Origin: Lentisphaeria bacterium UBA1829
GTDB taxonomy: Bacteria; Verrucomicrobiota; Lentisphaeria; Victivallales; UBA1829
Direction: 5' to 3'
NCBI GenBank assembly: GCA_002338895.1
Contig: DDJH01000230.1
Span: forward strand, 3,619 to 14,927
Length of the DNA stretch: 11,309 nucleotides
Made by a program: the position numbers and the translations under genes. Position 1 is the first letter of the stretch; each line of letters starts with the position of its first letter. Shown here in pieces: positions 89 through 11,182 of the stretch. The notes beneath the pieces were generated by a model that worked only from the letters and a program-made list of their open reading frames with translations, made no database searches and had not been told where the DNA came from.

Positions 89-1069
89 TTATGTTGATTG
101 TCGCAATACCAGATCACAGGGGACGATCTCCGGGGGCAGATGGGTCTTTCCCCGGAGCTGACGCTCCAGAAGTTCCGCCGCGACCTTTCCGATGGTCCCG
201 AGATGCAGGGAAACGGAAGAGAGAGCCGGCGTGAAAAAGCGTGACGCGGCGATGTCGTCGAATCCGATCACCGCCAGATCATCCGGAACGCGGACGGCGT
301 TTTTTTCCGCCTCCTTGAGCAGTCCCATCGCCATCACATCGGTTGCGCAGAGGACGCAGTCGGTCTCCGGATGGCGGTTCCGGATGTAGTTCAGGGCGTT
401 GACGCCGAACCGGAAGCCCGCTCCGCCGGGTATGACGGGGATTCGTTCCGATCCGCCGAACCCACGCTGAAAGCCGAGACGTTTGGCACTGTCGAGGTGG
501 CCGGAGAGATAGACGGGGTGACGGCGGCCTGTCTCGCGGAAATATTTCCCCGCGAGAAATGCGCCGTATTCATTGTCGTGCAGGACCGTGTTCCAGGGGA
601 AACCGGGAATCGTTCCGATCAGGACATAGGGAACCGAACAGCTTTCCGCCGTCTCCGCGAGCTTCCCCGCTCCGGGAGTCCCCGCAACGACGAGGATCCC
701 GGCGATGCTTCCGTTCAGCATCCGCGCCTTTGCCGAATCGATCACATGATCGTCGTTTTCATCGAACGGCGTCACCGTGAACACATGGTCGGTTCCGAGA
801 TGACGTTTGATGTTGACGGTGATCTCCGCCGTGAAGTAGTCGGGTTCGCCGGAATAGAGTTCCGGGTAGAAGAAGACCAGTTCCGGAAGATCGTTGTCCG
901 ACCGGATCCGGCGGACTCCGGAGGAGTAGCCGTATTTCTGGGCGATTTCAAAAATCCGTTTGCGCGTCTCCGGACTGATCCGGCCGTTCCCGGTAAACGC
1001 CCGTGACACCGTCGCAATCGACACTCCCGCCTTTTCCGCAAATTCCTGAATCGTGATCCGGTTTCTCAT
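89..1069 (-). CDS. LacI-family transcriptional regulator
   Basis: This 326-residue protein has the usual LacI/GalR length and layout. Residues 5-50 are the helix-turn-helix and hinge region: TIQEFAEKAGVSIATVSRAF, then ISPETRKRIFEIAQKYGY. Residues about 62-326 form the periplasmic-binding-protein-like sensor domain, ending in the typical block with VPDDLAVIGFDDIAASRF (about 260-280) and a closing LLERQLRG. Such proteins are cytosolic repressors that release DNA on binding a sugar or sugar phosphate; the ligand here is unknown. The start at 1069 is supported by AAGGAT on the minus strand (complement of 1075-1080). A perfect 15-bp inverted repeat lies 22 bases upstream and suggests autoregulation. 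The gene precedes a nucleotidyltransferase on the same strand and is divergent from the U32/QueG-like unit. It may control either or both. Confidence 0.93.
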   Translation of the reverse strand: MRNRITIQEFAEKAGVSIATVSRAFTGNGRISPETRKRIFEIAQKYGYSSGVRRIRSDNDLPELVFFYPELYSGEPDYFTAEITVNIKRHLGTDHVFTVTPFDENDDHVIDSAKARMLNGSIAGILVVAGTPGAGKLAETAESCSVPYVLIGTIPGFPWNTVLHDNEYGAFLAGKYFRETGRRHPVYLSGHLDSAKRLGFQRGFGGSERIPVIPGGAGFRFGVNALNYIRNRHPETDCVLCATDVMAMGLLKEAEKNAVRVPDDLAVIGFDDIAASRFFTPALSSVSLHLGTIGKVAAELLERQLRGKTHLPPEIVPCDLVLRQST

Positions 1070-1251: not shown

Positions 1252-1280
1252 TTGACTTTCCCGAAAGAGTGATGTATAAT
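1252..1280 (+). promoter_or_regulatory. Strong sigma70-like promoter of the U32/QueG-like unit
   Basis: TTGACT (1252-1257) is followed after exactly 17 bases by the perfect -10 box TATAAT (1275-1280). It points into the U32-like gene and predicts a leader of only about 35 bases, too short for a cobalamin riboswitch. It is among the best consensus promoters in the window. Confidence 0.8.
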
Positions 1281-1296
1281 TAACTCACCAGTGATG
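1268..1296. repeat. AGTGATG direct repeat around the -10 box, with a TCAC/GTGA palindrome
   Basis: AGTGATG occurs at 1268-1274 and again at 1290-1296. The 22-base offset is about two helical turns, and the copies flank the TATAAT box. The second copy overlaps the small palindrome TCAC-CA-GTGA (1285-1294). The placement over the promoter suits a regulator site, but the motifs are short and may be chance. Confidence 0.3.
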
Positions 1297-1321
1297 AAAA
1301 TAAAAAATCAGAGATGATGTC

Positions 1322-2359
1322 ATGAAATTCATGGTGGGCTACCAGCTGAACGCGCGGACGGATCTGCTTGCGGCGGTCATCCGCGCGAAGGAACGGATTC
1401 ATGAAGTTTACTTTCCGTGGGGGGATATTCCAACCGGCCGCGGTGTTCCTCTGGAACAGGGGGAACTGCTTCCGCTGGAGGCGCAGAATCTGCTTGTGGA
1501 AGATCTGAAACGACTTACGGAGGAAAAGATCGGACTCAACCTGCTTCTGAACGGGAACTGCTACGGGAAAGAGAGCCTGTCGCGGATATTCTTTGAGAAG
1601 ATCGGCAATTCGACGGACTGGCTTTCGAAGCGCTTTCTTCTCCGGTCGGTGACGACCTCCTCGCCGGTGATCGCGAAATTTCTGAAGAGGAACTTTCCGG
1701 ATCTGGAGATCCGGGCCTCGGTGAACATGGAAATCGGCACGACGCAGGCGATGGACTACCTTGCGGAGTGGTTCGACGGCTACTATATGAACCGGGACTT
1801 CAACCGCAGCCGTCGGCGCATTGCGGAATTGAAGCAGTGGTGCGATGCGAACGGGAAGAAACTGTATCTTCTGGCGAACAGCGGCTGCCTGAATTTCTGT
1901 TCGGCGCACCAGTTTCACGACAATCTTGTTTCGCACGAGCAGGAGATCCGGGCGATGGACAACGCCTACAACTTCCGGGGCATCTGTCACGACTACCTCG
2001 CCCGGAAGGAGAAGCAGATCCACTATCTCCGGGATACGAACTTCATCCGTCCGGAAGACCTCCCCCTCTACGAACCCTTTTTCGACGTTGCGAAACTGGC
2101 GACCCGCAGCAGCCGCGATCCGGTCCGGATTCTGGAAGCCTATCTGAGCGGCTCGTATCACGGCAATCTGATGGATCTGATGGAGCCCGACCATGCCGAG
2201 GCGTTCTATCCGGCGATTCTGGAAAACAGCCGGATTCCGGCGGAATTCGGAGAACACGTTCTGAATTGTCCGAAGAACTGCGGGCAGTGCACATACTGCG
2301 AGGAAATTTTCAGCAAGGCGAAAGTCATACTTGAATCAGGAGGAATTGCTTCATGCTGA
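1322..2359 (+). CDS. Peptidase U32-like Fe-S protein
   Basis: This 345-residue cytosolic protein resembles the U32 family. Despite the family name, its characterised members UbiU/UbiV, RlhA and TrhP act in oxygen-independent hydroxylation of quinone precursors or RNA, and UbiU/UbiV bind a 4Fe-4S cluster. Supporting blocks are ANSGCLNFC with a following histidine (C189, C193, H196) and a further C222. Next come FIRPEDLPLYEPFFDVAKLA (about 240-260) and the GNLMDLM segment. A cysteine-rich tail, C316-x3-C320-x2-C323-x2-C326, is well suited to a cluster. There is no signal peptide or membrane helix. The ATG at 1322 has only a weak purine-rich site (GAGATG, 1311-1316). The last bases overlap the next gene by 7, so translation is probably coupled. 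The substrate is unknown. Assignment to the U32 superfamily rests on motif memory, not a search. Confidence 0.65.
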   Translation: MKFMVGYQLNARTDLLAAVIRAKERIHEVYFPWGDIPTGRGVPLEQGELLPLEAQNLLVEDLKRLTEEKIGLNLLLNGNCYGKESLSRIFFEKIGNSTDWLSKRFLLRSVTTSSPVIAKFLKRNFPDLEIRASVNMEIGTTQAMDYLAEWFDGYYMNRDFNRSRRRIAELKQWCDANGKKLYLLANSGCLNFCSAHQFHDNLVSHEQEIRAMDNAYNFRGICHDYLARKEKQIHYLRDTNFIRPEDLPLYEPFFDVAKLATRSSRDPVRILEAYLSGSYHGNLMDLMEPDHAEAFYPAILENSRIPAEFGEHVLNCPKNCGQCTYCEEIFSKAKVILESGGIASC

Positions 2360-3420
2360 CCAGTGAAATGGTAAAGAAGGCGGCGCTGGCCGCCGGAGCC
2401 GATCTGTGCGGAATCGGCGACATGGCGCGTTTCGAAGGCGCGCCGAAGGAAATGGATCCGCGCTACATCTTTCCGGAGGCCAAAACGGTTATCGGGATGG
2501 TGTTCCGGATTCCGCGCGGCGTCCAGCGCGGCATCGAAGAGGGAACGCAGTTTTATCAGTATCCTTCGATGGCGTACGGCGGAATCAACGAGATCTATGC
2601 GCCCGCGGTGCTGTATCAGGTGGGCAAGCTCATCGAGGATCACGGATACGAGGCGGCGGTCTACCGCAACACCGGCGCGCGCGGGGTGGTGTCCGACATG
2701 GACGGCTCGCCCGGCAACTCCCTCTCACCCGAGGAGCAGATCGAGATCAATGAACAGGCCAAGACCAAGACGGCGCATCATCGTTCGGTTCAGTTCACCC
2801 GTCCGGTCCGGGAAGGCACGGTTGCGCCGGACCTCCAGTTTCACTTCCGTCTTGCCGCGGTTGCCTGCGGACTGGGGGAGATCGGCTGGAGCAAGATGTT
2901 TCTGACGGCCGAATTCGGTCCGCTCCAGCGTGTTGCGTTCATTTTCACCGATGCGCCGCTGGAACCGGATCCTCTGTACAGCGGTCCGCCGATCTGCCGG
3001 CGGTGCATGGCGTGCGTCCGGGAGTGTCCGGGCCAGTGTCTGGATCCGAAGGAGAGCATCACGGTCTACATCGGCGGCAAGAAGTGCGAGTGGGGAAAAC
3101 TCGACGAATGGAAGTGCTACGCCTTCTACACCCACGCCGGGCGCAAGTTCAATCCGTTTGTTCCGAAAGAGGTGTTCGATAAAAACGAAAACGGGGATCT
3201 GGATCTTCTGGAAGGCAAATGCAAAGCGTCGGAAGCGGAGATCATGAAGGTCTACGGCGCGCTGGAAAAATATTTTCCGACGTGGGTCGGATACAATATG
3301 GCCAAATGCGGCGGCTGCATCCGCGCCTGCGTAAGCATGCTGGAGAAGAAGGGCGGATGCATGGAACACCGCTTCAAATCCCCGCTCCGGACGGGGAAAC
3401 GCTGGATCATGGACCGTTGA
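2353..3420 (+). CDS. QueG-like (COG1600) 4Fe-4S protein, paralogue 1
   Basis: The protein has 355 residues, the longest of three tandem paralogues. COG1600 includes epoxyqueuosine reductase QueG and relatives of reductive dehalogenases, which are cobalamin and Fe-S reductases (family knowledge). The N-terminal part has GADLCGIGDM (15-24) and PEAKTVIGMVFRIPRG. CGLGEIGWSKMFLTAEFGPL, then FTDAPLEP, leads into cluster motif 1, C215-x2-C218-x2-C221-x3-C225-P. A conserved W-x-C (C255) is followed by NPF, and cluster motif 2 is C319-x2-C322-x3-C326. Compared with its sisters it carries an insertion at about residues 110-155 and a longer linker between clusters. The start at 2353 has AGGAGG (2338-2343) nine bases upstream and overlaps the U32-like gene. 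No signal or Tat peptide is seen. Whether it binds cobalamin cannot be judged by eye. It is probably not the housekeeping QueG, given the divergent context. Confidence 0.8.
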   Translation: MLTSEMVKKAALAAGADLCGIGDMARFEGAPKEMDPRYIFPEAKTVIGMVFRIPRGVQRGIEEGTQFYQYPSMAYGGINEIYAPAVLYQVGKLIEDHGYEAAVYRNTGARGVVSDMDGSPGNSLSPEEQIEINEQAKTKTAHHRSVQFTRPVREGTVAPDLQFHFRLAAVACGLGEIGWSKMFLTAEFGPLQRVAFIFTDAPLEPDPLYSGPPICRRCMACVRECPGQCLDPKESITVYIGGKKCEWGKLDEWKCYAFYTHAGRKFNPFVPKEVFDKNENGDLDLLEGKCKASEAEIMKVYGALEKYFPTWVGYNMAKCGGCIRACVSMLEKKGGCMEHRFKSPLRTGKRWIMDR

Positions 3421-3431
3421 AAGGAGCCGTT

Positions 3432-4343
3432 ATGCTGACAGCAGAACTGATCAAACGCAAGGCGCTGGAATTCGGCGCCGACCTTGTCGGAATCGGAGAC
3501 ATCGCCCATTACGAGGGAACGATTCCGCAGCGCGATCCGCGCAAAATTCTTCCCGCGGCGACCTGTGTAATCGGATTCGGATTCCGGGTTCCGCGCGCAC
3601 TGTACAAAAGCATGGAACAGGGATCGCAGTTTTTCAACTACACCCAGCTCGGCGTGAAGTACATCGACGAGGACCTCGCCGAAATCTTCCTGCTCAAGAT
3701 GGGCGGACTGATCGAAAATGAAGGGTACGACGCCTGCCTTCAGCGGAACGTCTCCAATCTCCGCATCAGGGGGGATCACACGACGAACGCGGAGCTGATC
3801 GACACCTATGAACTGGTCCACGCCGAGGCGATCGCTCCGGACAAACCGGTTCCGGACGTCATCATGGACTTTGCCCGTTCCGCGGAGATTTGCGGACTGG
3901 GCTCCGTCAGTATGCACGGCAACGTCATCACGCCGCAGTTCGGACCGTTTGTCCGTTTTGCGTTCATTGTGACCGACGCGCCGCTGGAATGCGACGCTCC
4001 GTTCCAGAAGCAGCTCTGCGACCGCTGCGGCGAGTGCGTGAAAGCATGTCCGGGCCACGCGATCGCTCCGGACGGCGAACTGAACACCTGGCAGTGCGCC
4101 GTCTACTACCGGGGGGCGCACAAGTCCAATCCGTTCATGACGGAGGAGTTCCTGAAAGGGGATCCGGAACGGGAGGCGATTCGAAACGGAACAAAGGTGT
4201 TCGACCGGGAGAGCGCACGGGCAATCTATAAAAAACTGGACTTTCTTCCGAGCCGGTCCACCGGCTACGCGCCCTGTCTCTGCGGAAAGCGGTGCGACAT
4301 GGCCTGCTATCATCATCTGAAAGCGAAAGGAATTCTCGCATGA
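3432..4343 (+). CDS. QueG-like (COG1600) 4Fe-4S protein, paralogue 2
   Basis: I chose the ATG at 3432, giving 303 residues. It has AAGGAG (3421-3426) five bases upstream, and its N-terminus, MLTAELIKRKALEFGADLVG, aligns with paralogue 1; the open frame upstream overlaps that gene and matches nothing. Further blocks are VIGFGFRVPRA, CGLGSVSMHGNVITPQFGPF and VTDAPLE. Cluster motif 1 is C196-x2-C199-x2-C202-x3-C206-P. W-x-C (C222) is followed by YYRGAHKSNPFM. The second cysteine group is C282-x-C284-x3-C288-x3-C292, so the core spacing is x3/x3 where paralogue 1 has x2/x3. It starts 11 bases after paralogue 1 and its stop overlaps the next start (ATGA). It is probably a cytosolic redox protein acting with its neighbours. 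The substrate is unknown. Confidence 0.8.
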   Translation: MLTAELIKRKALEFGADLVGIGDIAHYEGTIPQRDPRKILPAATCVIGFGFRVPRALYKSMEQGSQFFNYTQLGVKYIDEDLAEIFLLKMGGLIENEGYDACLQRNVSNLRIRGDHTTNAELIDTYELVHAEAIAPDKPVPDVIMDFARSAEICGLGSVSMHGNVITPQFGPFVRFAFIVTDAPLECDAPFQKQLCDRCGECVKACPGHAIAPDGELNTWQCAVYYRGAHKSNPFMTEEFLKGDPEREAIRNGTKVFDRESARAIYKKLDFLPSRSTGYAPCLCGKRCDMACYHHLKAKGILA

Positions 4344-5308
4344 AAACCCTGAACGAACGGATCACCGAAACGCTGAAGGCGCATGGAGCGGATCTTGTCG
4401 GATTCGGCGGAATCGAACGGTTCCGCGACACGGCGGTCCCCGCGATTTTTCCGAAGGCTCGAACCGTGATCGGAGCGGCCTTCCGGGTTCTGCGCGGTTC
4501 GCACCGCGGTGTGGAGGAGGGCTCCACCTACTATCAGTATACGACCACGGGAGTGGAAACCATTGAAGAGACCGTCATGCCTCTGGCGATGCTCCGGGCG
4601 TGCGCGGTTCTGGAAGACGCCGGATTCGACGCCCTCCCGCAGAAACGCAATCAGCTGATCATGCAGAGCTGCGACGACACCAATCCCGAGGTCAACTACT
4701 CGGAGATCTACCGTGGCAAAACCGCGGAAAACCAGCTGGACTTTGAAGAGGCCGCCGTCCTGTGCGGACTCGGCGAACGCGGATTTTCCGGAACGCTGCT
4801 GACGGACGACTTCGGTCCGTTCCAGCGTCTCTGCTTCATTCTGACCGATGCGGAGCTGGAGGAGACCCCTCTGGCGCAGCCCCACCTCTGCGACCGGTGC
4901 GGGAAATGCGCACAGGCCTGTCCCGGCCACGCCATCGACCCGTCAAGCGGGAAAGTCGACCACTGGCAGTGCGCCGCCTACTACGTGGGTGCCAACATGA
5001 CGAAGAATCCCTTCATGCCGCCGGACGCCTATCTGCATGAACCGGACCGTCTCGCGATCATCGCCGGCGAGGCGAAGCTCTCTCCGGAGCGCGCCCGGAA
5101 GATCATCGACGAAACCTTCTTCTATCCTCCGATCAAGCACGCCTATCTGAGCAGCATCTGCGGACGCGCCTGCGATGTGGCCTGCTACATCCACCTGGAG
5201 GAGAAAGGTGTTCTGAAACGCTCCTTCAAAACCCCCTTCCGCAAACGCCCCGAGTGGAAACTCTCCATTCAGATCGAGACGGAAGAGGAGAAGAACGCGC
5301 ACGCCTGA
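4340..5308 (+). CDS. QueG-like (COG1600) 4Fe-4S protein, paralogue 3
   Basis: The start is the ATG at 4340 inside the ATGA overlap with paralogue 2, with AAAGG (4326-4330) nine bases upstream, giving 322 residues. The frame is open further upstream, but those codons lie inside the previous gene. The N-terminus has AHGADLVGFGGIERF, then ARTVIGAAFRVLRGSHRGVEEG. CGLGERGFSGTLLTDDFGPF and LTDAELEE precede cluster motif 1, C184-x2-C187-x2-C190-x3-C194-P. W-x-C (C211) leads into YYVGANMTKNPFM. The second group is C274-x3-C278-x3-C282, followed by YIHLEEKG. It is closer to paralogue 2 than to paralogue 1 in this second motif. The charged tail, ending in IQIETEEEKNAHA, is not shared with paralogue 2. 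A strong intrinsic terminator begins 11 bases after the stop, so this is the last gene of the unit. Confidence 0.8.
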   Translation: MKTLNERITETLKAHGADLVGFGGIERFRDTAVPAIFPKARTVIGAAFRVLRGSHRGVEEGSTYYQYTTTGVETIEETVMPLAMLRACAVLEDAGFDALPQKRNQLIMQSCDDTNPEVNYSEIYRGKTAENQLDFEEAAVLCGLGERGFSGTLLTDDFGPFQRLCFILTDAELEETPLAQPHLCDRCGKCAQACPGHAIDPSSGKVDHWQCAAYYVGANMTKNPFMPPDAYLHEPDRLAIIAGEAKLSPERARKIIDETFFYPPIKHAYLSSICGRACDVACYIHLEEKGVLKRSFKTPFRKRPEWKLSIQIETEEEKNAHA

Positions 5309-5318
5309 TCCACCCTCC

Positions 5319-5356
5319 ATCCCGCCGGAAGACCTTTTTCCGGCGGGATTTTTTTT
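5319..5356 (+). terminator. Intrinsic terminator of the U32/QueG-like unit
   Basis: The perfect 12-bp stem ATCCCGCCGGAA/TTCCGGCGGGAT (5319-5330 and 5338-5349) closes a 7-base loop. It runs into eight T (5349-5356, the first shared with the stem). It lies between convergent genes. On the minus strand there is no T-run after the hairpin, so it should act rightwards only. Confidence 0.93.
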
Positions 5357-5385: not shown

Positions 5386-6297
5386 TCAGGGAAAGATCCC
5401 TCTTTTCCGGTACTCCTTTGGAGAAACGCCGAAGAACCTGCGGAATCCGGTTGAGAAATTCAACGCATCGGAACATCCCGAAAGCGCGGCGATCTCCTTG
5501 ATGGAGAGCTCGGGACGGAACAACAGTCCTGCGGCGCGTTTCATCCGGCATTCGACCAGTTTGCGATGCGGCGTGCAGCCGTAGGCCCTCTGAAAGAGGC
5601 GCAGGAGGTGATTGACCGAACAGCCGCAGCGCTCCGCCATCTCCGGCAGGGAGAACGGATGTTCCGGATGCTGTTCAAAATCCCGGACGAGACGGACCAG
5701 GGCGGGAGGGATCTTCCGATTTTCCTCCCGGTAGCAGAGGAATTGAAAGAGTTCCATGGTGAGCCTTCCGTTGCGTCGATGATTTTCGGTTCCGGAATAG
5801 CGGATGTTTTCGCGGAAAGCGCCGATCAGCCGATCCATCTCGAGCGGATCCATGCCGGGAATGACGCCGGGAGCTTCCAGACCGTACCGGCGCACCGCCT
5901 CCTGGAGCATCGGCCCCTCCAGCACGAGGGAGACCTTCCGACAGAAGCCCTCCGGACCGGTCATGAATTCGAATGACACCTCCGGCGGGAACACAATCAC
6001 ATCGCCGGCCTCCGCGAGATACCCGCACGTTCCGATCCGGCAGAACAGCGAACCGGATACGATTCTCTCCACGGAGCACATCGGCGGATTTTCCGAGCGC
6101 AGATGGGAGTTTTCGCACATTTCCGCCTCACAGACCCCGATGCAGTAAAACGGCTCGCGGATCGCAAAGCGGTCGATGCTGACGGGATCCATTCGCGAGA
6201 CCGTGTTGTTCTTCCGATAGCAGCACCGGTAACTCCCCGAAGATTTCCACAGGGGAAGGTCTCCCTGAAAGACGGACAGATCTTTTAGAGGTATCAT
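5386..6297 (-). CDS. AraC-family transcriptional regulator
   Basis: The protein has 303 residues. The N-terminal half (about 45-150) looks like an AraC-type cupin sensor, with ERIVSGSL and AGDVIVFPPEVSFEF. The C-terminal 100 residues carry two helix-turn-helix units: FSLPEMAERCGCSVNHLLRL (about 215-235), and from residue 265 SIKEIAALSGCSDALNFSTG, then FRRFFGVSPKEYRKRG, the classic AraC closing signature. Such proteins usually activate sugar-utilisation genes. This one is divergent from the prepilin-like and GH2-like genes and probably controls them. The start is uncertain: the ATG at 6297 has no clear ribosome-binding site, and Met36 (6192) would still leave the recognisable sensor domain intact. 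The promoter found upstream favours the longer form. The gene converges on the QueG-like unit, with the terminator between them. Confidence 0.9.
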   Translation of the reverse strand: MIPLKDLSVFQGDLPLWKSSGSYRCCYRKNNTVSRMDPVSIDRFAIREPFYCIGVCEAEMCENSHLRSENPPMCSVERIVSGSLFCRIGTCGYLAEAGDVIVFPPEVSFEFMTGPEGFCRKVSLVLEGPMLQEAVRRYGLEAPGVIPGMDPLEMDRLIGAFRENIRYSGTENHRRNGRLTMELFQFLCYREENRKIPPALVRLVRDFEQHPEHPFSLPEMAERCGCSVNHLLRLFQRAYGCTPHRKLVECRMKRAAGLLFRPELSIKEIAALSGCSDALNFSTGFRRFFGVSPKEYRKRGIFP

Positions 6298-6444: not shown

Positions 6445-7260
6445 ATGGACACAATCCGAAAGAACCGGGAAACCGATCGGAAGTTTCCTTCCGTTTGTTT
6501 TCCATGCCGTGCAGAGAGAGTGGTCCGGAAGAGGAACCGTTTTTCTCTGATCGAACTGCTCATCGTCATAGCGATCATCTCCATTCTGGCCTCGCTGCTT
6601 CTTCCGGCGCTTCAGGCGGCGCGGGAGAAGGCGAATGCGATGTCGTGCATGAACAATCTGAAGACGCTCGGGATGGGGATGGGAACCTATCTGAACGACT
6701 CCGGGGATGATCTGCCGCCGTTCCGGGAAAGAACGAATTATCACTCCGCCTACTGGATTCAGGCTCTTCTCGGGTACGATTCCCATGGAGAGGAGAGTTC
6801 GGTGCACTACATTCCGTATTCCACGCTCGGATGTCCCGCGATGGAGAAGAAAATGAGTCTGGAGAAAGCGGCGGTGGAGCATCTGCCCCACTATGCGGTC
6901 AACGCCTACATTCTGACCCATTCGCTTGCGATGGACGGTTCAACGTCCAATGAAACACGAGCCGGGAAACATTCGCGGATCAGGAACCCGAGCGAAAAAT
7001 ACTGTTTCCTCGACGTCTGGCGGAACACCGGCAACACCCCGCTGACCATCGACCGAACCGAGGGATGGTACCGGATCGGCGGATGGGCGCAGTACGACAC
7101 CGACTACGGGACCGTCGCATTGCGCCATCAGAGCCGGGCCAATGTGCTTTTTGCGGATTTTCATGTTTCCTCCCTGCCCGGCAATCTCTCCGATCCGCAC
7201 ACGGGGCTTTTCAGTCTGACCGGCTGGAACGAAAGGAAACAGCACTTCTTCCCGTTCTGA
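6445..7260 (+). CDS. Prepilin-like protein with H-X9-D tail (DUF1559-like)
   Basis: The 271-residue protein has a long basic leader (residues 1-32) ending in RKRNR. From F33 comes the type IV/type II pseudopilin helix [20 protein letters not shown], with the conserved Glu at position +5 (E37), then [12 protein letters not shown]. The C-terminal region contains H228-x9-D238 in the context [10 protein letters not shown]. This matches the H-X9-DG segment of large prepilin-like families in Lentisphaerota and Planctomycetota, except that the Gly is Phe. Position -1 of the expected cleavage site is Arg, not the usual Gly. Such proteins would be inner-membrane or envelope proteins; their role near glycosidase genes is not established. 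The start has AAAGGAAG (6432-6439) five bases upstream. The GH2-like gene follows after 54 bases on the same strand and is probably co-transcribed. Confidence 0.88.
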
Positions 7261-7314: not shown

Positions 7315-10300
7315 ATGCTGAAACAACTTTTTCTTCCACTACTTCTTTTTCTGACGCTCCTTGTGACGGGGGCGGAGGGGGAGAACCGTCTTCTTGCCCG
7401 TCCGGGCTATTCCCCGAAGATCCACACGGCCGGCGATGCGAACTATCGCGCGGATGAAAACGGCCTGCATCTCCAGCTGAGCGGACATCTTGCGGTTGTC
7501 GGGATCCGCTTTCCGCTGACGGAGGGAACGACCGACCTTCTCCTCTCCGGCGAATCCTCGTGCCGGGATGTGAAGGAGGGAGCGGAATCCTGGCGGCAGG
7601 GACAGGTCAGTTTGATCTTCTTCGACAAGGAGGGGCGGCGGATGAAGACCCGTTCCGGAAATCGGCCGCATCGTCTTTCCGGCACACAGACGTGGAGAGC
7701 GTTTCAGCTCGGCTTCACCGTTCCGGAAGGAGCCGTTTCGGCGGAGCTGGACGGAAGCAATTACGGGGAGTCCGGCAGGGTGGAGTTCCGGAATCTGAAG
7801 CTCTCCGAACACCGGGGCAAATTGCGGATGGATGCACCTGTTCCGGACGGGAGCACGCAGGAACAGATCTGGTCGCTTGACGATGCGTTCCGGAAGAAGA
7901 ACGCTCTGCGGGAGACAATCTGCCTGAACGGTCTCTGGCAGTTTCTCCCGGTGCGGGAGGCGGATTCCAGGCAGATCCCTCCGCCGGGCAGCGGCTGGGG
8001 ATACTTCAAAGTTCCGGGCGTCATTCCGGACAACAGCTGGCTTTCCGGCTCCGCGCAGAGCATCTGGTATCATCCGCAGCAGACCGACCGGATTCCGGAA
8101 GCGGAGATCAACCGGGCCTGGTATCGCCGCACTCTGATTCCGCCCCGGGAGTGGAGCGGGAAACGGCTGATTCTTGCATTCACGGGTCTCCAGAGCCGTG
8201 CGGACGTGTTTGTCGACGGCCGGAAAGCCGGCAGATCGTTCTATCCCGGCACGCCGGTGGATCTGACAGGTTTCCTGAAGCCGGGAAAACGTTCCGAACT
8301 GGCAGTTCTGGTTGCCGCGGTCCGTTCGAAAGAATCCTCGAAGATCTATATGGCCGGCGACCGGACGGTGAAAGCGTTCGAGATGCGCAACCGGGGCATC
8401 ACCGGCGATCTGTTTCTCTCCGCCATTCCGGATGCGGGCGTCTTTTCGGATGTCCGGATCGAGACCTCCGTCCGGAAGTGGCGCATCGCCTTTGACTGCG
8501 GACTGGAACGCATCCGCCCCGGACGCTATCGGATCCGTGCGGAGATCCGGGAGAAGGAGAAACCGATCCGCGTCTTCGACTCGCCGGTTTTTGAACGCCG
8601 GGACGGACAATCGCGCTATCGCTTTGATTCTCCGTGGCGCGATCCGAAACTCTGGGACACCGATCACCCTGAAAACCTCTACACCGCAACGCTGACCCTC
8701 TTTTCCGCGGAATCAGACACCCCGCTGGATCAGTTCGGCCCGGAGCAGTTCGGTTTCCGGGAGTTCCGGATCGAGGGCCGCCAGTTTCTTCTGAATGAGA
8801 TTCCGATCCATCTTCGGATGCTTGTCGCCCAGCTTCCGACCTACTCCCCGGATGTCACCAACGACGCACACTGCGATGCAATCTGCCGGAAGCTCTCCGA
8901 ACTGAACGTCAACACCCTGATCTCCGGCGCCTACAACTGCGATCCCGGCACGATCGGCTATCAGGACTCGTTCTACCGTTCCGCCGCACGGCACGGGATT
9001 CTGACGTCGCTCACACTTCCGCATGTGAAGAACTACCCCGATCTTCTCACCAATCCGGCCACTGCGGCGCGCTACCGGGCGGAGGCGGAATGGTTTCTGC
9101 GGCGCCACCAGAACAATCCCTCGATCGTTCTCTATGCGATGAACCACAATTTCACCGGTTACTACGGCAACCAGAATCCGCAGAAAATCGACGGCATTCA
9201 TTCTCAGGACGCATTCGGGAAAAGCGAACCGAGACAGCGCGCCTCCGCGGCCTGGCGGATCGTCCATGCACTGGATCCCTCCCGTCCCATCTACCACCAC
9301 GAGAGCGGCAATCTGGACGGGATCTACACCATCAACTGCTACCTCAACTGGGCGCCGATTCAGGAGAAAAGCGACTGGTTCGAACACTGGGAATCCCGCG
9401 GACGCATTCCGCTGATGCTTCTGGAATGGGGCGCTCCGCACGTCGCCAGCTATTCCAGTCACCGGGGCAACCCCTTCATTCATCACGCGGCGGTCAATCA
9501 GTGGCTTCATCTTCTGGAGTGGGGGGCTCCGTTTTTTGGGGAGGAGGTCTATGCCTCCACTCCGGCTCTGAAGCGCTACTACCGGGAGGAGAGCCGTCTT
9601 CTCCGGGACAATGCGAAGCTCCATCTCTGGCAGCTGCAGAGCGCCTGGGACGCCACCAATCTTCCGCAGAGAATCTGGGAGAAACAGCTTCACGACAATC
9701 TGTTCGCCCTGCGCCGCCGCGGCGTTTCCGCAATTCTTCCGTGGGATCAGACCCGTCTGATGGTCCGGAAGAGGGAGTTTCAGGCGAAGGAAAATCCGGA
9801 TCGTTTCCGGGATCTGAAGCGTCCGGGCGTCTCTCCCGACCGTTTCAACACCCGGCAGATGCGCACGAACTGGATGCTGGCATACGATCTTTCCAGCTTT
9901 GAACCGACTCTGTTCGGACGGGCTCTCGCCGCGGGATTCGCCGAAATCACCGGACGGATCACCGGACCGGGCCGCGAATTCTCGCAGAAGGACCACAACT
10001 ACCGGGCGGGCGAAACGGTCCGCAAACAGCTGACGATTCTCAACGACAGCCGCCGTCCCCGTCCGGTCTCCTGGAGCTGGCGGATCCCGGAGCTCGGGAG
10101 AGAAAACGCGGGCACCGTCACCCTTGCGCCGGGGACCTTCGCGGAAATCCCGCTGGAGTTCCGGATTCCCGCCGACTGCACCCGTCCGTCGCTCACAATT
10201 CAGGCGAACTTCCGCTGCGCGGGATTTCCGGACTGCGCGGACCGTTTTTCCATCGACGTGATTCCCCGCACGCCGCCCGGAGTGCCGCAATCCGGGATCG

Positions 10301-10464
10301 GAGTTCTGGATCCGGAAGGTTCGGCCAAAGCCCTTCTTCGCCGCCTCTCGGTTCCATTCCGGGAGATCCGGGAGGGAAAGGATTGTTCCGGACTCCGGCT
10401 TCTGATCTGCGGACGGAACTCGCTGCAGAAGCCGATTCCCGGACTGGAAAAGGCGATGGGATAA
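7315..10464 (+). CDS. Secreted GH2-type glycosidase-like protein, 3' end lost at a junction
   Basis: A signal peptide (1-20, cleavage after VTGA) is followed by a beta-sandwich region (about 25-195). A GH2 sugar-binding domain (about 200-365, starting LNGLWQF) and an Ig-like domain (about 375-485) come next. The TIM barrel opens with REFRIEGRQFLLNEIPIHLR (484-503) and runs to about 780. A further beta domain (about 895-985) precedes the start of a Rossmann-like tail (GLRLLICGRNSL). E704 in MLLEWGAP fits the GH2 nucleophile. At the usual acid/base position (N-E) the sequence reads AMNHN (N610-H611-N612), so the general acid is missing or located elsewhere. Ribosome binding looks weak. The frame stops after PGLEKAMG, mid-domain, where composition changes abruptly, so the stop at 10464 is probably not native. 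The role is likely breakdown of a plant or host glycan outside the cytoplasm; the substrate is unknown. Confidence 0.88.
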   Translation: MLKQLFLPLLLFLTLLVTGAEGENRLLARPGYSPKIHTAGDANYRADENGLHLQLSGHLAVVGIRFPLTEGTTDLLLSGESSCRDVKEGAESWRQGQVSLIFFDKEGRRMKTRSGNRPHRLSGTQTWRAFQLGFTVPEGAVSAELDGSNYGESGRVEFRNLKLSEHRGKLRMDAPVPDGSTQEQIWSLDDAFRKKNALRETICLNGLWQFLPVREADSRQIPPPGSGWGYFKVPGVIPDNSWLSGSAQSIWYHPQQTDRIPEAEINRAWYRRTLIPPREWSGKRLILAFTGLQSRADVFVDGRKAGRSFYPGTPVDLTGFLKPGKRSELAVLVAAVRSKESSKIYMAGDRTVKAFEMRNRGITGDLFLSAIPDAGVFSDVRIETSVRKWRIAFDCGLERIRPGRYRIRAEIREKEKPIRVFDSPVFERRDGQSRYRFDSPWRDPKLWDTDHPENLYTATLTLFSAESDTPLDQFGPEQFGFREFRIEGRQFLLNEIPIHLRMLVAQLPTYSPDVTNDAHCDAICRKLSELNVNTLISGAYNCDPGTIGYQDSFYRSAARHGILTSLTLPHVKNYPDLLTNPATAARYRAEAEWFLRRHQNNPSIVLYAMNHNFTGYYGNQNPQKIDGIHSQDAFGKSEPRQRASAAWRIVHALDPSRPIYHHESGNLDGIYTINCYLNWAPIQEKSDWFEHWESRGRIPLMLLEWGAPHVASYSSHRGNPFIHHAAVNQWLHLLEWGAPFFGEEVYASTPALKRYYREESRLLRDNAKLHLWQLQSAWDATNLPQRIWEKQLHDNLFALRRRGVSAILPWDQTRLMVRKREFQAKENPDRFRDLKRPGVSPDRFNTRQMRTNWMLAYDLSSFEPTLFGRALAAGFAEITGRITGPGREFSQKDHNYRAGETVRKQLTILNDSRRPRPVSWSWRIPELGRENAGTVTLAPGTFAEIPLEFRIPADCTRPSLTIQANFRCAGFPDCADRFSIDVIPRTPPGVPQSGIGVLDPEGSAKALLRRLSVPFREIREGKDCSGLRLLICGRNSLQKPIPGLEKAMG

Positions 10465-11182
10465 AACTATTCACGAGTTCATAGACATGCTCGCGAGGGT
10501 TCAGGGCATTATAATTATAGAATTCGTCAAAGTATTTGCCAATCAGCTTAGCCATGCAATGACTGATCAAGGTCAGTGTGCCCCCAGTTTGCAGGCAGGC
10601 TTCACCGAATGTCTGCAGGCTTTTAGGCAGAACGAGCTTTTCCAACTGCGGGCAGTTGAAGAAGACCTTGTCGCCTAGTTTTTCGAGTTTTTGGTTTAAA
10701 GTGACGTGTTTGAGGGAGGTACAGTCTCGAAAGGCCTCATGATCGATCTGACGTACCTCATCAGGCAGATCGATCGCGCTTAGGGAAGGGCAGGAGGCAA
10801 AGGCATTGTGCTCAATGTGGCGCAGCGTCAAAGGCAGTACCACTTCCTTTAAAGAAGTACAGAAATAAAATAAGCTGCGGCTGATCGTCTGCAGATTTTG
10901 AGGCAGTCGCACTTTTTCGAGCGCACTGCAGCGGGCAAAGGCATTTCCGCCGATGGCCTGAATGGAGTCGGGCAGGATGACTTCCTTCAGCTTTGCACAT
11001 TGATAAAAGGCCAGATTCCCAATGCGCATCACACCATCTAAAAAGGTCACGGATTCAAGATCATTGCTGCCGTAGAAAGCGAAGTCCTGGACGGATTCGA
11101 TTCCGGATGGGACGATGACATGCTTTTTGTGACCGTGATAGGCGACGAGTTCGCCATTTTTTATTTCAAATTCATTCATCAT
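10193..11182 (-). CDS. BspA-like leucine-rich-repeat protein (native part 11182 to about 10461)
   Basis: The first 240 or so residues are native. After EFEIKNGELVAYHGHKKHVI there are seven LRR_5/BspA-type repeats of 23 residues with the pattern L-x2-V-x-LP-x2-[LIV]-x2-I-x3-AF-x2-C, for example LKEVILPDSIQAIGGNAFAR. An aromatic-rich segment, GKYFDEFYNYNALNPREHVY, then ELVNSFIP follows. From about residue 241 the reading frame is antisense to the GH2 gene (Pro/Ser/Arg-rich, no family features) and should be ignored. Such repeats mediate protein binding; no signal peptide is seen, so a cytosolic place is likely. GAGGTG (complement of 11185-11190) lies only two bases from the first ATG but five from the second (11179), which may be the true start. 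A consensus promoter lies upstream. Gene style and GC suggest a Firmicutes donor, perhaps Erysipelotrichales-like (inference). Confidence 0.8.
   Translation of the reverse strand: MMNEFEIKNGELVAYHGHKKHVIVPSGIESVQDFAFYGSNDLESVTFLDGVMRIGNLAFYQCAKLKEVILPDSIQAIGGNAFARCSALEKVRLPQNLQTISRSLFYFCTSLKEVVLPLTLRHIEHNAFASCPSLSAIDLPDEVRQIDHEAFRDCTSLKHVTLNQKLEKLGDKVFFNCPQLEKLVLPKSLQTFGEACLQTGGTLTLISHCMAKLIGKYFDEFYNYNALNPREHVYELVNSFIPSPFPVRESASAASSVRRSEAGVRNNPFPPGSPGMEPRGGEEGLWPNLPDPELRSRIAALRAACGESRRWKNGPRSPEIPRSGSSPEL
10456..10464. other. Junction between two unrelated DNA segments (probable chimera)
   Basis: Left of about 10461 the GH2-like frame is intact and GC-rich (38/60 in 10321-10380). Right of it the sequence encodes, on the minus strand, an LRR protein at lower GC (26/60 in 10861-10920). 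The GH2 frame hits a stop one codon after the point. The LRR frame loses its repeat-family sequence at the same point and runs on into the antisense of the GH2 gene. No repeat, insertion-sequence end or target duplication is seen. A misassembly is the simplest reading; a true recombination is possible. Confidence 0.8.

Follow-up and report, generated by a model that had tools for sequence, protein, structure and literature searches.

A conserved operon joining a U32-like protein to three reductive dehalogenase/QueG-family paralogues: a candidate sugar-directed redox module in Lentisphaeria

The 11,309-nucleotide stretch of contig DDJH01000230.1 (positions 3,619 to 14,927) from Lentisphaeria bacterium UBA1829, hereafter the window, carries a four-gene operon, U-A-B-C, in which a candidate U32-fold Fe-S protein (U) precedes three tandem paralogues of the reductive dehalogenase/QueG family (A, B and C). 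With about even confidence, we interpret U-A-B-C as a dedicated, repressor-controlled, oxygen-independent redox enzyme module acting on a sugar- or glycoside-derived molecule. The operon anatomy, the conserved gene order, the three clades, the cluster ligands, the dispensability for queuosine, the local LacI genes and the operator-like sites are directly supported by the comparisons below; the folds of U and A are predicted, and we infer complex formation, cobamide use, reaction direction and substrate. Literature searches, which covered mostly titles and abstract openings and few subscription papers, yielded no published description of the set, in agreement with a preliminary description of this DNA that knew of no pathway with such a 1+3 arrangement, and the reaction of U-A-B-C appears to be undescribed so far. 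The operon and its control elements are as follows.

89-1069, minus strand: LacI-family repressor gene, transcribed away from the operon and a candidate for its dedicated regulator (Pfam LacI 2e-13, Peripla_BP_3 1e-21)
1252-1280, plus strand: sigma-70-type promoter, TTGACT-17-TATAAT, 11 of 12 consensus bases
1280-1297, plus strand: candidate operator-like element TTAACTCACCAGTGATGA, read from the sequence, with the core TCAC-CA-GTGA at 1285-1294, just past the -10 box
1322-2359, plus strand: U, 345 amino acids, candidate U32-fold Fe-S protein
2353-3420, plus strand: A, 355 amino acids, reductive-dehalogenase/QueG-fold protein with ligands for two [4Fe-4S] clusters; 7-base overlap with U
3432-4343, plus strand: B, 303 amino acids, paralogue of A, own clade (100/100); 11-base gap after A
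4340-5308, plus strand: C, 322 amino acids, paralogue of A, own clade (100/99); 4-base ATGA overlap with B
5319-5349, plus strand: intrinsic terminator, 14-pair stem followed by a T run

The four-gene unit had been proposed with exactly these coordinates, overlaps and gap, and the promoter and terminator are both present. Neither promoter-like sites (1 in the window versus a mean of 1.2 in shuffled sequences) nor terminator-like sites (6 versus 5.0) exceed the number expected by chance; despite this, the two signals flanking U-A-B-C are credible because of their position and the long stem.

We assessed conservation in the class of genome G001 (197 genomes), which also includes the Lentisphaerae/Victivallales bins of loci L002, L003, L004 and L007. 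B, recognized by a match at E <= 1e-80, is present in 36 of the 197 genomes, with one match apiece, and all 36 neighbourhoods were read. The order U-A-B-C is found in 26 of these carriers, and three more neighbourhoods are split or cut by a contig end and consistent with it (G171, G828 and G101); one genome displays the order A-B-C-U (G851), and on three contigs too little sequence is available to judge (G772, G779 and G854). Outside the class, U-A-B occurs in two genomes of one phylum, at L005 (a Planctomycetia bin) and at L101, each locus being cut, and a single Oscillospiraceae bin of the Clostridia (G006) carries U-A and A-B-C on two contigs (L006 and L086). Planctomycetia and Clostridia bins are also among the named homologues of A at 80-83%. 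U, searched at E <= 1e-20, was detected in 42/194, 2/299 and 6/246 genomes of three phyla. The proposal of a conserved 1+3 Fe-S protein system thus holds in the neighbourhood comparison, and the lack of any conserved neighbourhood, which the preliminary description had named as the outcome speaking against a system, did not occur. Directly downstream of one U-A-B-C set lies a group II intron (L002:9426-9566), the sole Rfam match among nine sources scanned.

The three paralogues share 33-39% identity. In a tree of 108 rows, comprising 24 A (including L085, an A-like gene that stands alone, with neither B nor C), 21 B and 21 C sequences, each of A, B and C formed a single clade in 200 of 200 bootstrap trees, with B and C as sisters. 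Over 27 full sets the median identities were 50% for U, 85% for A, 69% for B and 64% for C, and the pairwise distances of the four proteins correlated at 0.71-0.88, a range that shared ancestry by itself would equally produce. In one of the 26 conserved neighbourhoods (G004), B and C form a single frame of 615 amino acids (L004:10127-11974) with both CxxCxxCxxxC motifs; the fusion hints that the two proteins work in contact or in one assembly, although it was seen in a single bin and may stem from a sequence error. Elsewhere, an A-like frame of 818 amino acids (L114:4331-6787) also bears two CxxCxxCxxxC motifs.

By profile and by fold, A is closest to reductive dehalogenases. The A-family profile (73 rows) matched them at E 1e-21, better than QueG (E 4e-12), and the predicted structure of A adopts the reductive-dehalogenase fold with cobamide and ferredoxin modules, its best fold matches being reductive dehalogenases; nitroreductases, present in the fold-search lists at lower Z, were given no weight. 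Scores against the QueG model TIGR00276 were 23.5, 53.2 and 32.2 bits for A, B and C, respectively, and those against the NCBIfam reductive dehalogenase model TIGR02486 were 39.1, 44.7 and 42.9 bits, all under the curated cut-offs of 200 and 160. The earlier label 'QueG-like' is therefore half right: the homology is real, and B alone prefers the QueG model (53.2 versus 44.7 bits), but the A-family profile fits reductive dehalogenases better.

The active site was tabulated from one alignment of 38 rows (19 A, 10 B and 9 C). Eight cluster cysteines (C215, C218, C221, C225, C255, C319, C322 and C326) are kept in all 38 rows and follow the QueG order, reproducing the ligand pattern for two [4Fe-4S] clusters given for QueG in the part of PMC4646009 drawn on here. 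The same part equates PceA Tyr246 with QueG Tyr101 and presents a tyrosine at this place as conserved in both dehalogenases and QueG (PMC4646009). In A, B and C it is replaced by glutamate in 38/38 rows, and the Tyr of the QueG DYH motif is accordingly missing; the pairing of Glu80 of A with Tyr246 comes from a HMMER alignment that is weak in this stretch (mean posterior 0.55). Among the 29 A-like rows contributed by the two-gene and tandem modules (see below), 15 have Tyr at the same position. The equivalent of PceA Arg305 is Arg in all 38 rows, and at the position of PceA Asn272 there is Asn in 19/19 A and 9/10 B sequences and Arg in 9/9 C sequences. Hence, the full PceA site Tyr246-Asn272-Arg305 is not present, and the glutamate at the Tyr place together with the retained Arg sets A-B-C apart as a branch of their own, whose site is in part dehalogenase-like. 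The intact ligands and the separate clades also ruled out A, B and C as decayed copies.

A halogenated compound, perhaps a sugar-like one, as the target of reductive dehalogenation would be in keeping with the best profile and fold matches and with the conserved Arg305, but appears improbable given the scores of 39-45 bits against a cut-off of 160 and the catalytic Tyr being Glu. Moreover, inspection by eye revealed no twin-arginine signal in A, B or C (P0002-P0004), the four-gene operon contains no membrane anchor gene, and the LacI control and glycosidase neighbours described below do not suggest organohalides.

The distant QueG homology also brings up tRNA modification, with A-B-C as an alternative epoxyqueuosine reductase. 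Of 23 carrier genomes tested, all encode QueA and 18 encode QueH; the five without QueH (G005, G006, G083, G087 and G171) have a long QueG-type match away from A-B-C, at 111-203 bits, whereas such matches in the other 18 genomes reach at most 51 bits, and only G005 exceeds the curated cut-off. QueH and long QueG-like matches are thus complementary, one or the other occurring in each of the 23 genomes. Since QueA is everywhere and is accompanied by QueH or a separate QueG-like gene, A-B-C are not needed for queuosine, and their identification as ordinary QueG/queuosine genes was rejected on this tally. The low QueG scores (23-53 bits against 200) and the LacI-type regulator point the same way, leaving epoxyqueuosine reduction extremely improbable. 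Accordingly, the suggestion of an RNA base as substrate, taken as a queuosine role, finds no favour in this test, nor did we encounter the situation that would have dissolved the unit, in which one paralogue is the QueG of the genome and the others are decayed.

On the strength of its TIM-barrel fold in the predicted structure, U is U32-like. The profile search did not bear this label out: Pfam PF01136 did not match U (P0001), and only 5 of 76 relatives matched at E <= 0.01, the best at 5e-4. A sequence search of the PDB with U alone returned nothing and with the U alignment only 5d88, at E 2.4; many other TIM barrels in the Foldseek/VIA-align lists were given no weight. Among its relatives C80, C189 and C222 of U are invariant and C193 nearly so, and the C-terminus carries a nearly invariant motif, C316-x3-C320-x2-C323-x2-C326. 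U32 oxidases have the motif CX6CX15CX3C and act on quinones and RNA, according to the part of PMC11574389 drawn on here. The U32 fold invites the reading that U hydroxylates an RNA base or a quinone, like UbiU/UbiV, RlhA and TrhP, with A-B-C as accessory reductants. We consider this quite improbable: the cysteine spacing of U does not follow CX6CX15CX3C, and both the patchy spread (36/197 genomes in the class) and the local LacI gene are unlike those of a housekeeping function. The U profile also showed no significant match to Escherichia coli UbiU, UbiV and TrhP (probabilities 0.2-2.8%), in a comparison with single-sequence templates that has little power.

The regulatory context connects the operon to the LacI family. 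Among 34 U-bearing loci, a LacI-like open reading frame (ORF) stands beside U in 16 according to the first ORF map and in 19 after an all-frame scan, which added L001, L132 and L146. In the first map, LacI genes make up 16/57 of the genes at positions -1 or -2 relative to U as compared with 4/205 of those elsewhere in the same loci (Fisher test, 1e-8); the test uses the 16-locus count, and the training set of its LacI profile comprised 12 genes, 11 of which belong to that count. Among 100 pooled operon neighbours, 11 match LacI. The LacI of L001 occupies the same place as that of the window and is 92% identical to it, but the LacI proteins near U belong to several types that are only poorly related to one another, so that the association concerns the LacI family and not one inherited gene.

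Operator-like sites vary along with the repressors. At the place of the window element, L001 has TCAC-TG-GTGA, the two loci sharing TCAC-NN-GTGA. A different palindrome lies near the -10 box in 15 of the 34 loci, in the form TAACTGTATNACGNNGACAGTTA in nine and as a 22-base variant in six. The 23-base form accompanies a group of LacI proteins that are 57-84% alike (L053, L055, L059, which is partial, and L061), and the 22-base form accompanies two that are 75% alike (L004 and L050), whereas neither form occurs in the window, L002, L005, L054, L056 and L058, whose LacI proteins are of other types; the variants thus track the LacI type. Six palindrome loci lacked LacI beside U in the first map, and one of these (L146) proved to have it on rescan. 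When 24 genomes were searched for TAACTGTATNACGNNGACAGTTA with up to 3 mismatches, 11 sites were found, of which eight lie directly upstream of U and one upstream of the A' gene of a paired A'-U' module, versus 4 sites for a reversed-pattern control. The remaining two, 3-mismatch sites in L127 and L128 without a U- or A-like gene within 1.5 kb, were considered as further regulon members and, in view of the control, not counted.

Together with some of the downstream genes, the LacI regulators point to sugar. Of 37 loci with C, 7 have an MGH1-like glycoside hydrolase whose start coincides with the end of C or lies no more than 20 bp from it (in L061 after trimming of the ORF to the homologous start), with no signal peptide seen by eye in the five starts inspected; 4 of the 100 pooled neighbours match the MGH1-like domain. 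An aldose 1-epimerase follows 8 bp downstream in L055 and a xylose-isomerase-like barrel 110 bp downstream in L051. Nothing was seen to indicate the quinone-like or xenobiotic substrate suggested previously. In the window, an AraC gene (5386-6297, minus strand) lies past the terminator, followed by a DUF1559/pilin-like gene (6445-7260), a GH2-like protein (7315-10464) and a BspA-type leucine-rich-repeat protein (10193-11182, minus strand), whose ORF overlaps the end of the GH2 ORF by 272 bases on the opposite strand.

In the module that we favour, a LacI-type repressor would be released by a sugar-like effector. A, B and C would then act as three specialized reductive dehalogenase/QueG-family subunits, each with the ligands of two [4Fe-4S] clusters, and at least one of them would probably hold a cobamide as the reactive centre, while U, a distant U32-fold Fe-S protein, would serve with A-B-C as the partner for oxygen chemistry. 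We propose, because of the fold, the ligands and the regulation, that a sugar-derived molecule undergoes a low-potential two-electron reaction, with electrons passing through the six predicted clusters of A-B-C. Reductive C-O cleavage or oxygen transfer would be the most likely chemistry, its substrate being a sugar or glycoside-derived molecule inside the cell that feeds carbohydrate catabolism.

Several observations weigh against this interpretation. The sugar-gene neighbours are a soft clue: the hydrolases of the seven loci are 70-94% identical in the comparisons made, and these loci may represent one lineage, most other downstream proteins checked had no Pfam match, and the window operon ends at its own terminator, the next co-directional genes lying beyond it and the AraC gene. 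No LacI-like ORF was found beside U in 15/34 loci, two of which (L003 and L140) hold less than 500 bp there. Cobamide use is weakly supported, with 6 of 23 carrier genomes having a cobalamin riboswitch that exceeds the gathering score (16 if matches at E <= 0.001 are counted) and none near the operon in the nine sources scanned against Rfam; PF02310 is absent from one of the 23 genomes and in 9 rests on one ORF of about 800 amino acids. Finally, A-B-C stands without an adjacent U in 3 of the 36 carriers (G083, G087 and G773), and U shows the lowest conservation of the four (median identity 50% versus 85% for A), so the four proteins need not be one obligate complex.

The relation between U and A-B-C can also be turned around, with A-B-C having no chemistry of their own and forming an electron-transfer or reactivation complex that delivers low-potential electrons to U; the actual catalyst would then be U, acting as a U32 hydroxylase or dehydroxylase. 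The loss of the catalytic Tyr from proteins that keep both sets of cluster ligands, the four additional near-invariant cysteines of U and the adjacency of an A-like gene in 57 of 63 mapped U-like loci are all in line with such a role. This adjacency comes from a sample biased upward: of 65 U matches in the 42/194 genomes, 43 were mapped, mostly better-scoring ones, and further loci were picked by A or B matches. We nevertheless regard this alternative as unlikely, because A-B-C occurs without adjacent U in those three genomes, the conservation of A far exceeds that of the other members, and A, B and C all retain the dehalogenase Arg, with the Asn also retained in A and most B.

Related modules extend beyond U-A-B-C. 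Two-gene A'-U' modules were found at 23 loci, and in several of these an IclR gene lies next to the pair or separates its two genes; in four modules (L069, L072, L073 and L075) an ORF of 234-241 amino acids separates A' and U', recognized as IclR by direct scan in L069 and grouped with it by BLAST in the others. Tandem A'-A' genes occur with AraC genes in L108, L109 and L110 and without one in L107, and at L082:7100-10805 three tandem A-like paralogues (A2-A3-A4), none of them in the A, B or C clade, come after an IclR gene, in a set without U. Among 110 neighbours of two-gene and tandem modules, 16 match IclR and 12 match AraC. Tandem U-like arrays with no A-like ORF within 1.5 kb were also observed, with five genes at L080:7294-13296 and three at L081:8142-11640. 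A bolder proposal, which we put forward tentatively, is that U-A-B-C represents a new enzyme class, a sugar-induced, oxygen-independent complex of three dehalogenase-fold subunits, with Glu for Tyr and a cobamide, and a U32 partner, which would remove or move oxygen on carbohydrates; with IclR or AraC regulators nearby, the same toolkit would recur in 1+1 (U+A') form and as tandem A' genes, each substrate having its own module.

The part of PMC4646009 drawn on here gives two known jobs for the class III cobamide fold, dehalogenation and epoxyqueuosine reduction. If our interpretation is correct, a conserved module that couples this fold with the U32 fold, and that has a sugar-type repressor as its neighbour, would bring the carbohydrate chemistry of anaerobic bacteria into the range of both families. 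Through the LacI gene and its operator-like site, the inducer, and thereby the substrate, becomes directly testable.

Compared with known systems, U resembles the U32 oxidases (UbiU/UbiV, RlhA and TrhP) and the U32 protein Mk0906 (5d88) in its predicted TIM-barrel fold and in a C-x3-C pair (C189 and C193 in U), and differs from them in lying under Pfam detection, in its other cysteine spacing, in the additional C-terminal four-cysteine motif and in its operon partners, which are dehalogenase-family genes. Unlike QueG (TIGR00276), A-B-C have no C-terminal HEAT repeat domain, A stopping 29 residues past its last cluster cysteine with no helical repeat after it in the model; they have Glu at the DYH-motif Tyr and carry an Arg that QueG is without. 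From the reductive dehalogenases (PceA and NpRdhA; TIGR02486), A-B-C are separated by scores far under the cut-off, by Glu in place of Tyr246 and by no export signal having been seen, and they are further set apart by the combination of three different paralogues and a U32-like gene in one operon.

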